Source of the DNA: Candidatus Nanopelagicales bacterium
GTDB lineage: Bacteria > Actinomycetota > Actinomycetes > S36-B12 > CAIYMF01
Assembly (NCBI GenBank): GCA_025456065.1
Contig: JALOLH010000050.1
Location: 1-36,167, forward strand
Direction: 5' to 3'
DNA length: 36,167 nt
Shown here: piece after piece, positions 82 through 3,684 of the stretch
Numbering within the stretch: the first letter of the stretch is position 1
Layout of the letters: the number at the start of each line of letters is the position of its first letter
Program-made: the position numbers and the translations under genes
The notes under the pieces: model-generated
The model's database searches: none
The model's input: only the letters and a program-made list of their open reading frames with translations
Told to the model about the DNA's origin: nothing

Positions 82-102
82 CTCCGGCCCGGCCACCCCC
101 CG

Positions 103-128
103 GTTTGCTCCGCTGGCGTACGTCTGCT
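103..128 (-). repeat. Outer inverted copy (left) of the 19-bp repeat family
   Basis: This 26-bp stretch is the reverse complement of positions 1339-1364 with a single mismatch (25 of 26). Read on the minus strand it is the end of one repeat unit followed by most of a second one (core GCGGAGCAAAC). It lies 3' of the DUF559 gene, and its partner lies 5' of that gene, so the pair brackets the gene. Match counted by eye. Confidence 0.85.
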
Positions 129-136
129 GATCGGCC

Positions 137-288
137 CGGTGGAGCAGGTGCACCCTGGCGGAGCGGACGCGTGCCGGCGGAGCGGACGCGTGCCGGCGGA
201 GCGGACGGGTGCCGGCGGAGCGGACGGGTGCTGGCGGAGCGGACGGGTGCTGGCGGAGCGGACGCGTGCCGGCGGAGCGGACGCACGG
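137..288 (+). repeat. Array of eight 19-bp tandem repeats
   Basis: Seven in-phase 19-bp units begin at 156, 175, 194, 213, 232, 251 and 270, with core GGCGGAGCGGACG followed by CGTGC or GGTGC. An eighth, degenerate unit precedes them at 137-155. There are no spacers, so this is not a CRISPR. The array ends 13 bp from the stop codon of the minus-strand DUF559 gene. It opens in all plus-strand frames, but these encode only low-complexity peptides and are not genes. Confidence 0.92.
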
Positions 289-301
289 CGGGCGCGCAGG
301 C

Positions 302-1192
302 TCACGGTGCCCGCAACGCTCGGTGCATCCGGGCCGCGAGCGCCACCTCGTCCCACAGATGTGCCCAGATCACCCGCCGAACCGGATACCCCTGCTCGAC
401 GATCCGATCGTGGCGCTGCTTCTCGAGCCAATGGGCGCGCGCCACGTCGCCGCTCATGGCGTACTTCGCCTCCCCGTCGAACTCGACCACCAGACGGCCC
501 TCGACCAGGAAGTCCACGCGCGGCGCGCCCTCGACGTCGTCGAGCACGACCTGCTCCGCCAGGGGGAGTCCCATCCGTTGCAGGCGAAGCCGGAGCAATG
601 ACTCGCCGGGACTCTCCGCGAGCGGGCTGCAGAGACCAGGCAGTGCCCGTGCCCGGGCCGCGCCCCACGACGCCGTCATCACGGCGGCTGCGCTGGTGAG
701 CGCAGGCAACGCGACGAGACCCTGGTGGAGGGCTGCGTCGGCGATGACGACCGCCCAGTCCATGTCTCTCGCCCGCGCGACGTCGAGAACCGTGCGCATC
801 GGGTCGGTCACCGGGATGCCGTGCAGCTCGGCGACGGCGTCGAGTGGGATCTCTCGCCTGTGGAACCGGTACCCAGGCCCCGACTTCGCGTGTCCTGCCC
901 TGCCCGCGAGGGCGGAGAGGTGCACCATCTCGAGGTCCCGGGTCCGGGCTGGCAGGCCCCACAGCGCTGCGGCCGTGTGATGGCTCACGACTGCGTCGCT
1001 CACCCGCGTGCTCAGGGCGGCCGCGCGCAGCGCGAGCAGCTGTGGTCCGGTCAGGCCCTGCGTGTGCGCGTACAGGCCGACGGCCAGGCGATCCATGCCG
1101 CGGATGGCCGAGGAGATCTCCCGCCGGCTCGCCCCCTGACTGGCCAGGGACGCGATGCGCAGGAGGGCCGGCGGGGCTGACACGCACGGCAT
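302..1192 (-). CDS. DUF559 endonuclease-like protein with AbiEi-like N-terminal half
   Basis: A 296-residue protein of a large, poorly characterised actinobacterial family. The first ~45 residues look like a shortened winged-helix segment ending GLYAHTQ. The middle (SHHTAAALWGLPA ... DPMRTVLDVAR) matches the AbiEi-antitoxin-like region of these proteins. The C-terminal ~95 residues hold the DUF559 (Vsr/restriction-endonuclease-like) pattern: RVDFLVEGRLVVEFDG, then KY, then W.EK.RHD and a terminal VRRVIWAHLW. The D-EFDG-K arrangement fits a metal-dependent nuclease core, but activity is inferred. The start at 1192 has AGG immediately before it and no well-spaced RBS, so the start is uncertain. 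The frame stays open upstream as a shadow of EF-G2 and is not a fusion. The gene is bracketed by inverted repeats (103-128 and 1339-1364) and followed by the 19-bp array, which suggests an accessory unit. Confidence 0.8.
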   Translation of the reverse strand: MPCVSAPPALLRIASLASQGASRREISSAIRGMDRLAVGLYAHTQGLTGPQLLALRAAALSTRVSDAVVSHHTAAALWGLPARTRDLEMVHLSALAGRAGHAKSGPGYRFHRREIPLDAVAELHGIPVTDPMRTVLDVARARDMDWAVVIADAALHQGLVALPALTSAAAVMTASWGAARARALPGLCSPLAESPGESLLRLRLQRMGLPLAEQVVLDDVEGAPRVDFLVEGRLVVEFDGEAKYAMSGDVARAHWLEKQRHDRIVEQGYPVRRVIWAHLWDEVALAARMHRALRAP

Positions 1193-1298
1193 CCTGCGGC
1201 ACCCGGGCGCATCCGGGTCCCCCTCCCGCAGGATCTGTGGACAGGCCCCCTGACGCCGACGTGCCCTGGCCGTGGACCCAGGGACGTGCCACCACCGT

Positions 1299-1324
1299 GT
1301 TCGCTCCGCCAGCGTGCGTTCGCT
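1299..1324 (-). repeat. Inverted member of the 19-bp repeat family
   Basis: Read on the minus strand it contains CTGGCGGAGCGAAC, the core of the array at 137-288. It matches positions 103-128 at 20 of 26 bases in the same orientation. It matches the reverse complement of 1339-1364 at 21 of 26. With that neighbour it forms a long imperfect palindrome with a 14-bp centre. Confidence 0.8.
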
Positions 1325-1338
1325 GACCAGCGCCGCGG

Positions 1339-1364
1339 AGCAGACGTACGCCGGCGGAGCAAAC
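1339..1364 (+). repeat. Outer inverted copy (right) of the 19-bp repeat family
   Basis: Partner of 103-128: 25 of 26 bases match after reverse complementing. It comprises parts of two tandem units, the second reading GGCGGAGCAAACGCGGG. It lies about 150 bp upstream of the DUF559 start codon. Confidence 0.85.
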
Positions 1365-1490
1365 GCGGGTGGGGGCGCGGGACGGCGGCGGGGGCGCGGG
1401 ACGGCGGGCGGGGGCGCGGGACGGCGGCGGCGGGGGGCGGCGGGGGACGGCGGCGGGGGACGGCGGGGGACGGCGGCGGGGGACGGCGGG
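1365..1490 (+). repeat. G-rich minisatellite (GGGACGGCGGC-type units)
   Basis: About 125 bp of short, irregular, near-identical units of the form GGGGGCGCGGGACGGCGGC and GGGGGACGGCGG. The plus strand has many G-tracts of four or five with short spacers. No gene or recognised element is visible. Such stretches are prone to length error in assemblies. Confidence 0.75.
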
Positions 1491-1530: not shown

Positions 1531-3684
1531 TCAGGCCTTGGCCTTCGCCGCCTCGATGACCTTCTTCGCGATCTGCCCCGGCATCGGCTCGTGGCCGATG
1601 TACTCGCGGGTGAACGTCCCGGTGCCGTGCGACATCGAGCGCAGCTCGATGGCGTAGCGGGTCAGCTCCAGCTCGGGCACCTCGGCCTTGATCTGCGTGC
1701 GGCCGTTGCCGACCGGCTCGCTGCCGAGCACCCGGCCACGGCGGCCCGACAGGTCGCCCATCACCGCACCGACGTACTCGTCGGAGACCAGCACGCTGAT
1801 GCGCGCCACGGGCTCGAGCATCGACAGCTGCGCTGCCGCCGCGGCCTCCTTCAGGGCCAGGGCCCCAGCGGTCTGGAACGCCATGTCCGAGGAGTCGACC
1901 GAGTGCGCCTTGCCGTCGAACAGGGTCACCTGGATGTCGACGACCGGGTAGCCGGCGACGACGCCCTTGTCCATCTGGGCGCGCACGCCCTTCTCGACCG
2001 ACGGGATGAACTGGCGCGGGACCGCCCCGCCCACCACCTTGTCGACGAACTCGAAGCCGGAGCCCGCCGGCAGCGGCGTCACCTCGATGTCGCACACCGC
2101 GTACTGCCCGTGCCCACCGGACTGCTTCACGTGCCGGCCGTGCCCCTTCGCCCCGGACGCGAACGTCTCGCGCAGCGAGACGCGCAGCTCCTCGGACTCC
2201 ACGGCGACGCCGTAGCGGTTGCGCAGGCGGTCCAGCAGGACGTCCACGTGCGCCTCGCCCATGCACCACAGCACCAGCTGGCCGGTCTCCGCATTGCGGT
2301 CCAGCCGCATGGTGGCGTCCTCGGCCACGAGCCGGTTGAGCGCCTGGCCGAGCTTGTCCTCGTCGGCCTTCGACTTGGCCACGATCGCCACGGGCAGCAG
2401 CGGGTCGGGCATGACCCACGACTCCATGAGCAGCGGGTTGTCCTTGTCCGACAGGGTGTCGCCGGTCTCCGCCCGGGTCAGCTTCGCGACGGCGACGATG
2501 TCCCCGGCGATCCCCCGGTCGATCGTGCGCTGCACCTTGCCCAGCGGGCTGGACAGCGCCCCGATGCGCTCGTCGACGTCGTGGTCCTCGTGCCCGCGCC
2601 CCTCCGCGAAGTGCCCGGAGACGTGCACGGTGGAGTCCGGCGTGATGGTGCCGGAGAACACCCGCACGAGCGAGAGCCTGCCGACGTACGGGTCGGTCGT
2701 GGTCTTCACGACCTCGGCGCACAGCGGGCCGGCCGGGTCACAGGCCAGGGGGCCGCGCGGCTGGCCGTCGGGGGTGGAGACCGGCGGCAGGGGGTGCTCC
2801 AGCGGCGAGGGGAACCCGCGGCGGACCAGGTCGAGCACCTCGGCGGTCCCCAGGCCCCCGATCTCCACGGCCGTGCCCAGCACGGGGTAGAAGGAGCCGC
2901 GGGCGACCGCCTTCTCCAGGTCCTCGATGAGGGTCTCGGTGTCGATGTGCTCGCCGCCGAGGTAGCGGTCCATGAGGCCCTCGTCCTCGCTCTCGGCGAT
3001 GATCCCCTCGATGAGCGCGGCCCTGGTGCTCTCGATCAGCTCGCGGTGCGTGTCCTCGGGCTCCCGGTCCACCCGCGATCCGGAGGAGTAGTCGTGGATC
3101 GTCTCGCTGATCAGGTCGATGAAGCCGGCCGGGGCGCCGTCGTCGCCGGCCATGGGCAGCATGAGCGGCATGACGCCGTCGCCGAAGACGCGCTGGCAGA
3201 TCGCGACGAGCTCCTCGAAGTCCGCGCGCTGGTGGTCCAGGCGGGTGACCACGACCGCGCGGGGCATCCCGACGGCGGCGCACTCCTCCCAGAGCATCTG
3301 CGTGCCGCCGTCGACGCCGTCGACCGCGGAGACCACGAACAGCGCCGCATCGGCGGCGCGCAGGCCGGCACGCAGGTCGCCGACGAAGTCGGCGTAGCCC
3401 GGCGTGTCCAGGAAGTTGACCTTCACGCCGTCGAGCACGACCGGCGCCAGCGCCAGCCCGACCGAGCGCTGCTGGCGGACCTCGGCCTCGTCGAAGTCCG
3501 AGACGGTCGTCCCGTCAGTGGTGCGGCCGGCCCGGGGGATCGTCCCGGTCGCCGCGAGCATCGCCTCGAGCAGCGTCGTCTTGCCCGCGCCGGCCGGTCC
3601 CACCAGGACCACGTTGCGGATGTCGGCGGGGCTGCTCGGTGCGACGACCGAACCACCACCCGCCCCAGTGTTGCCACCAGCCAT
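1531..3684 (-). CDS. fusA2: Elongation factor G-like protein EF-G2
   Basis: A 717-residue translational GTPase of the EF-G2 subfamily, a paralogue of EF-G found in many actinobacteria; its cellular role is not settled. The G domain shows the P-loop GPAGAGKT (29-36), DTPG (93-96) and TRLD (147-150) in place of the canonical NKxD. Domains II to V follow at full EF-G length, including GGHGQYAVCDIEV and the C-terminal EYIGHEPMPGQIAKKVIEAAKAKA region (about 700-717). It is not beside rpsL/rpsG, which argues against the housekeeping EF-G. The ATG at 3684 is preceded by GAAAGG at normal spacing. It is transcribed divergently from pgsA and ends at a strong hairpin. A ribosome-protection tetracycline-resistance protein is a less likely alternative. 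Confidence 0.9.
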   Translation of the reverse strand: MAGGNTGAGGGSVVAPSSPADIRNVVLVGPAGAGKTTLLEAMLAATGTIPRAGRTTDGTTVSDFDEAEVRQQRSVGLALAPVVLDGVKVNFLDTPGYADFVGDLRAGLRAADAALFVVSAVDGVDGGTQMLWEECAAVGMPRAVVVTRLDHQRADFEELVAICQRVFGDGVMPLMLPMAGDDGAPAGFIDLISETIHDYSSGSRVDREPEDTHRELIESTRAALIEGIIAESEDEGLMDRYLGGEHIDTETLIEDLEKAVARGSFYPVLGTAVEIGGLGTAEVLDLVRRGFPSPLEHPLPPVSTPDGQPRGPLACDPAGPLCAEVVKTTTDPYVGRLSLVRVFSGTITPDSTVHVSGHFAEGRGHEDHDVDERIGALSSPLGKVQRTIDRGIAGDIVAVAKLTRAETGDTLSDKDNPLLMESWVMPDPLLPVAIVAKSKADEDKLGQALNRLVAEDATMRLDRNAETGQLVLWCMGEAHVDVLLDRLRNRYGVAVESEELRVSLRETFASGAKGHGRHVKQSGGHGQYAVCDIEVTPLPAGSGFEFVDKVVGGAVPRQFIPSVEKGVRAQMDKGVVAGYPVVDIQVTLFDGKAHSVDSSDMAFQTAGALALKEAAAAAQLSMLEPVARISVLVSDEYVGAVMGDLSGRRGRVLGSEPVGNGRTQIKAEVPELELTRYAIELRSMSHGTGTFTREYIGHEPMPGQIAKKVIEAAKAKA

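Follow-up and report, generated by a model that had tools for sequence, protein, structure and literature searches.

The window, the whole 36,167-nt stretch of DNA analysed here, is contig C59 of a Candidatus Nanopelagicales MAG (genome G000; 139 contigs, 2.78 Mb, 85% complete). Close to its left-hand end, a gene for a predicted nuclease stands between two copies of a 68-bp palindromic element, with the features arranged as follows (genes were found by our own codon-usage method, not by Prodigal).

102–169, plus strand: 68-bp palindromic element, copy C59a, 3′ of the nuclease gene; covariance-model match with E=5e-14; consensus hairpin
Within 102–169: outer motif copies of C59a, GGTTTGCTCCGC / GCGGAGCGGACG
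157–283, plus strand: tandem expansion of the right-arm unit, seven GGCGGAGCGGACG units at an exact 19-bp pitch
About 302–1192, minus strand: nuclease gene, 296 aa; AbiEi-like winged-helix/antitoxin-type domain and C-terminal DUF559/Vsr-like PD-(D/E)XK nuclease
1298–1365, plus strand: 68-bp palindromic element, copy C59b, 5′ of the nuclease gene; covariance-model match with E=2e-14
1531–3684, minus strand: EF-G-like gene, context only, adjoining the nuclease unit; 94% identical in the same-genus genome G016

An initial annotation of this DNA had described a single DUF559-type nuclease gene between two outer repeats in inverted orientation, at 103–128 and 1339–1364. Both the coordinates and the match (25 of 26 bases identical) were confirmed, as was the single gene, which lies at 302–1192 on the minus strand and encodes the nuclease as a fusion to an AbiEi-like domain. 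The eight-unit array reported just past the stop codon also stands, as seven exact units with a variant unit in front of them; it ends 18 bp before the nuclease stop codon (302–304), and similar extra units are found at other copies of the element in the same genome. The outer copies are not the simple terminal repeats for which they had been taken, however, as each belongs to a full 68-bp palindrome, of which it forms one arm. Taken whole, C59a and C59b are identical at 49 of 68 positions and the mean over pairs of elements in the genome is 51.8, so that the two are no closer than average pairs; and since unlinked arms elsewhere match at 26 of 27 bases, the agreement between the outer window arms is not special on its own. 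Directly past the EF-G stop codon an inverted repeat lies at 1484–1524; its 18-bp arms match perfectly around a 5-base loop, and it is probably the EF-G transcription terminator.

The window repeat is an ungapped, imperfect palindrome with two motif copies in each arm at a 19-bp pitch: an outer motif CGTTTGCTCCGC/GCGGAGCAAACG, an inner motif at that pitch, and a centre that reads roughly GACCGGYRCCGCGG. The family is not a product of chance, as the pattern GGCGGAGCRNACG has 29 matches in the window's genome against two for the reversed pattern. A covariance model built on 11 copies, in the alignment of which we sought and did not find a fixed tag, detected 16 full elements in this genome (32 hits counting both strands) and seven in G016, four of them strong; none of the remaining 15 genomes in the family had a convincing copy of the window element. 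Measured against shuffled sequences, whole elements fold with z-scores of −2.6 to −8.1, whereas half elements fold no better than shuffles in four of five elements; one half from Gordonia reached z=−3.6. Compensatory changes were present at only three of 25 pairs in the 68-bp element, and so we make no claim of a conserved RNA; a search of Rfam with eight loci holding these repeats gave no match above the gathering score.

The intergenic copies of the window family are found between tandem genes, between convergent genes and in one case between divergent genes. Reading frames contain two of the copies in the window's genome, one in a linker of HypF and the other in the C-terminal tail of a fused urease gamma/beta subunit, and the HypF of G016 also holds a copy, in a different linker. 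The in-frame copies in the HypF linkers of the two species and the urease gamma/beta tail are at L111:1566–1633, L118:286–353 and L107:5001–5068. In the window's genome a copy of the element separates hemB from hemL, and in G016 one separates hemL from the gene that follows, a difference in placement which indicates that copies of this family come and go. At the orthologous EF-G locus of G016, the nuclease gene and its palindromes are absent, a comparison that covers the right junction only, as the window contig stops 100 bp beyond the unit and the gene expected on the left is missing from the assembly. G016, itself an incomplete assembly, has window palindromes and no detectable intact cognate gene.

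The N-terminal two thirds of the 296-residue window protein match the AbiEi model of PADLOC (E=8e-15), and the C-terminal third is DUF559-like, scoring 12.5 bits against Pfam DUF559 (PF04480), under the cut-off of 20.6. A homologue in the same genome, L031, passes that cut-off at 24.4 bits, and the motif residues are shared; E197, D227 and E237 are invariant among 55 homologues. The AlphaFold model of the window protein has a mean pLDDT of 93, and in a structure search of the PDB its nearest solved nuclease domain was that of the homing endonuclease I-Bth0305I (E=0.005, TM-score 0.65 on the target), with a further match to the structure of the AbiEi-like protein Rv2827c. Although their E-values are weak, these matches of a predicted structure point the same way as the sequence. 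Members of the gene family are present in 102 of 144 near-complete genomes of Actinomycetes (about 70%), with up to 15 genes per genome and not in near-identical multiple copies; a search of plasmids with one family member at E≤1e-10 found no homologue.

How general the arrangement is was assessed with a flank test, in which the 450 bp upstream of a gene are compared with the 450 bp downstream and which does not look for palindromes. Fifty of 62 loci scored above the 99th percentile of cross-locus pairs. As that control includes orthologous pairs (maximum 219), we place our trust in a same-neighbourhood control, in which 18 of 20 nuclease genes exceeded the 99th percentile of 199 control genes from the same 20-kb regions (Fisher p=3e-22), with mean scores of 51.2 for nuclease genes and 17.7 for controls (20 vs 199 genes; Mann–Whitney p=1e-10). 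With 20 further loci, matching flanks were present at 66 of 83 in total, about 20% of loci having none. Near-perfect hairpins were likewise concentrated at these genes: 42 in the 20.8 kb lying up to 250 bp from 43 homologues vs 11 in 136 kb elsewhere, and, in a new set of 30 loci including the window's contig, 23 in 24 kb near genes vs one in 66 kb, two of the 23 being a single hairpin of the window's contig counted twice. Hairpin detection of this kind misses imperfect palindromes, the window's own among them.

The association of an AbiEi–DUF559 gene with palindromes is therefore class-wide in Actinomycetes, and the suggestion of the initial annotation that a DUF559-type nuclease is paired with actinobacterial palindromes, much as a RAYT is with REP sequences, gains support from the 18 of 20 genes with matching flanks against about 1% of the 199 controls. 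That comparison, together with the 66 of 83 loci across the class, refutes at class level the notion that a common intergenic repeat merely happens to flank one gene on both sides. Seen from the window by itself, coincidence could appeal to the absence of the window repeat from the neighbourhood of the genome's other DUF559-family genes, and to the two bracketing copies not being especially alike; we give it almost no credence.

The initial annotation had also expected the repeat to recur at DUF559 genes. In its general form this expectation was borne out, in that a repeat family of the gene's own flanks most of them; the window's own repeat, in contrast, was sought at DUF559 homologues elsewhere and not found. 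Taken alone, this negative search would look like a refutation, but it is misleading, as the repeat is private to each gene. Most loci have repeats of unrelated sequence, none of 17 pairs of same-genome paralogues share a repeat, and repeats are alike mainly where the proteins are at least 60% identical (7 of 18 pairs, vs 9 of 2127). This specificity of repeat for gene is observed directly, and so is a common anatomy. Despite the differing sequences, a palindromic or inverted organization recurs across loci, and a 19- or 20-bp pitch was found in 40 of the 67 repeat windows that have an internal repeat, among them those of Microbacteriaceae, Micrococcaceae, Gordonia, Actinomyces and others. At the loci examined, the upstream repeat mostly lies 45–200 bp before the gene, a matching copy follows the stop codon at most loci, and the nuclease gene was the sole gene between the repeats wherever this was checked. 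A second family member in the window's genome, on contig C90, has the inverted motif CGTCGTTC/GAACGACG on both sides, as read by eye.

Repeats of these families are also dispersed far from their genes. Gordonia alkaliphila has 14 copies, of which two bracket the nuclease gene and 12 lie elsewhere on the chromosome, seven of these between convergent genes and none beside another such nuclease gene. In genus g43, searched with a DNA query made of one unit plus its neighbours, the genomes with a closely related unit (G067, G052, G080 and G163) gave 41, 69, 24 and 14 matches, whereas eight genomes with no unit or with a diverged one gave two to four, essentially the flanking genes and, where there is one, the diverged unit. 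Dispersed copies were thus detected in four of four genomes with a closely related unit against none of eight (Fisher p=0.002, with no correction for relatedness). In the window's genome and in Gordonia, the copies are single palindromes whose arms are inverted; in G067 and G052, 26 of 34 fetched loci are inverted doublets that contain no gene and keep a constant relative orientation, six of them sharing an outer length of 188–190 bp. Six of the G067 loci lie within a longer repeated segment of 0.5–1 kb and are not six independent insertions. In anatomy, the gene-less doublets are non-autonomous derivatives of the unit, and the dispersal, the doublet form and the differences in presence between relatives are all seen directly.

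Two accounts would explain the scattered copies with no part for the nuclease in their spread. According to the first, the palindrome upstream is an operator through which the AbiEi-like domain keeps its own gene repressed, dispersed copies are regulon or terminator sites occupied by this protein, and any nuclease function is unrelated to their distribution. AbiEi and Rv2827c do bind inverted repeats of 23 bp, arranged in pairs, and control the promoters of their own genes through multiple repeats of this kind (PMC7319586); the position of the upstream repeat, mostly within 200 bp of the gene, would suit an operator, and the preference of the Gordonia copies for convergent spaces would suit a terminator. 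Convergent spaces and coding sequences (hypF, urease) are not promoters, however, and a matching copy lies past the stop codon at most loci, where no operator is needed. Gene-less doublets of recurring length, and a copy number that shifts between relatives, are features of mobile repeats, and we regard the operator explanation as unlikely.

In the second account, the unit is an ordinary terminal-repeat transposon with an unrecognized transposase, the nuclease is passenger cargo and the scattered repeats are MITEs. Inverted terminal repeats of 60–110 bp and the MITE-like doublets of genus g43 are what such an element would leave. Against this, the unit holds no transposase gene, the nuclease gene being alone between the repeats at loci checked, and no target-site duplication was evident at the outer ends of 13 doublets. 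We sought a clean empty site at the G016 EF-G locus and at a locus between PAC2 and mshC and found none, some units are conservative in position, and the same gene family occurs with unrelated repeats in many lineages. A classical transposon is accordingly a very improbable explanation, and we favour it far less than an operator.

Four relatives without the unit were examined at the PAC2–mshC locus, and in three of them an acetyltransferase gene stands in its place. In several genomes of one genus (G067 and G052, at L162 and L157; also G163, G080, G140 and G164) nuclease units occupy this locus, but in opposite orientations, which suggests that the unit was inverted by recombination between its inverted repeats or by an equivalent event. 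Some units keep their neighbours across a genus or between families, and this, together with the lack of near-identical multiple gene copies, indicates that the nuclease gene itself mostly moves rarely. In two different families of bacteria, units (L169 and L164) were found in the same fba–DUF3151 neighbourhood, which suggests ancient vertical inheritance or a preferred site. Other palindrome families (GATCCATTCGGGTT... and ATGATCATCAACGTT...) occupy spaces orthologous to the unit sites of relatives at L122:820–870 (G016) and at L257 (G165).

Reversal of orientation at one locus is also what inverted-repeat recombination would give if the gene were a homing-type selfish element, its nuclease cutting gene-less palindromes, allelic or dispersed, into which the gene is then copied by recombination, with the scattered palindromes as targets or scars. 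The nearest solved nuclease domain being that of a homing endonuclease, and the gene lying between or inside its own repeat, would both fit. Dispersed copies far outnumber genes, however, and are mostly doublets of recurring length, so that the repeats multiply without the gene; and since same-genome paralogues share no repeats, there is no sign of the gene spreading from one of its sites to another. Homing seems to us improbable, and somewhat more so than autoregulation.

Our data are most consistent with a model in which the window gene and its palindromes are one member of a class-wide set of nuclease–repeat pairs, the palindromes being copied in trans in the manner of the RAYT/REPIN system, and we consider this reading probable. 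An inverted motif repeated at about two helical turns suits an AbiEi/Rv2827c-like protein, and the fused nuclease suggests cutting at the bound palindrome; DNA binding, cleavage and mobilization by the nuclease protein are what we infer. Several observations weigh against the model: neither a clean empty site nor a target-site duplication came to light, the gene itself mostly moves rarely, about a fifth of loci have no matching flanks, and G016 combines window palindromes with no detectable intact cognate gene. In such a mechanism, the AbiEi-like domain would bind the motif that recurs at a 19–20-bp pitch in each arm, and the PD-(D/E)XK domain would then cut or nick the palindrome, perhaps in the form of an extruded cruciform. 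Palindromes would be copied to new sites by repair or insertion, and the nuclease gene would serve non-autonomous repeats in trans, the part suggested for RAYTs with respect to REPINs.

The likeness to RAYTs and REPINs lies in organization. RAYTs have been proposed as the trans-acting partners of REPINs, short palindromes that are scattered outside genes and frequently form inverted doublets; as with our genes, each RAYT has its own repeat family and is encoded by one copy of a gene that passes mostly by vertical descent (PMC3116915). In the window's genome, in Gordonia and in G067, too, one gene for an enzyme that acts on DNA stands between copies of a repeat which also occurs at dispersed sites. 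The enzyme differs, being an AbiEi–PD-(D/E)XK fusion here rather than a Y1 HUH tyrosine transposase, and the profile of the latter (PF01797) had no match in G000 or G016. The repeats differ as well, as they have no conserved GTAG (or CGTC) tag, a single arm does not fold alone, and the arms carry a motif at a 19–20-bp pitch.

Other known systems resemble ours in part. Like the CGTC-tagged REPs and the Rickettsia palindromic elements (RPE), our repeats are dispersed palindromes without a RAYT, some of them in coding sequences; CGTC REPs, unlike them, have stems of 8–9 bp and no linked gene, in place of a 68-bp palindrome with four motif copies and a linked nuclease gene, and in a published survey no dedicated enzyme was assigned to CGTC-type repeats (PMC3733652). 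The AbiE type IV toxin–antitoxin systems share the AbiEi-type N-terminal part, with its Rv2827c-like structure, and the binding of AbiEi to paired inverted repeats, but differ from our genes in the nuclease fusion and in the repeats on both sides and at dispersed sites. No AbiEii toxin neighbour was seen, EF-G being the only sequenced neighbour of the window gene and 14 loci, inspected by eye, having unrelated genes. I-Bth0305I, a Vsr-like homing endonuclease, is the nearest solved structure to the C-terminal nuclease domain, but our gene, known from sequence and a model, is not in an intron or intein and is associated with palindromic repeats. Insertion sequences with MITEs share the inverted repeats, but our units show no known transposase domain and no evident duplication. 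The system thus falls outside the definitions of RAYT/REPIN, insertion sequences and AbiE, and has the organizational features of RAYT/REPIN.

We rate the pairing as new by its enzyme and by the architecture of its repeats, and its organization as analogous to a known kind. The statement of the initial annotation that no such pairing had been described agrees with the open-access literature, where none of 14 papers that name DUF559 also names AbiEi and none of those checked by title and abstract deals with such repeats, most subscription papers lying outside that search. With a little less assurance than for the model above, we favour the view that AbiEi–PD-(D/E)XK proteins of Actinomycetes copy short palindromes around the genome and so make up a widespread, undescribed kind of mobile repeat system, an independent evolutionary counterpart of RAYT/REPIN with a one-to-one match of protein to repeat family. 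REP-like repeats occur in many bacteria, and to our knowledge the RAYT is the only well-described dedicated enzyme. With a second, unrelated class of enzyme that has repeats of its own, it would become possible to test how intergenic palindromes arose and spread in actinobacteria. Such a class would also give a role to many ‘DUF559’ or ‘AbiEi-like’ genes now annotated as unknown or as orphan antitoxins, and the many natural protein–repeat pairs could reveal how recognition specificity is encoded.

Lastly, the dispersed copies of genus g43 showed several further features. The longer repeated segment of G067 (L245–L249 and L254), about 0.5–1 kb long and present in at least six copies, holds the palindrome, has ATGATCATCAACC-type ends and is possibly another element. 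Several G052 copies (L264, L266, L268, L271, L272, L274, L275 and L280) are interrupted near CGTGATC, often close to contig ends, and the foreign ends are common to all (TCTCTGTCAGGG... / ...CACATAGGAGCGTC), which looks like another insertion sequence that targets the palindrome. In many doublet spacers (L241, L250, L252, L261, L265 and L267) there is a conserved GGCAATCGCTTTCC-like stretch, similar to operators of the LacI type.
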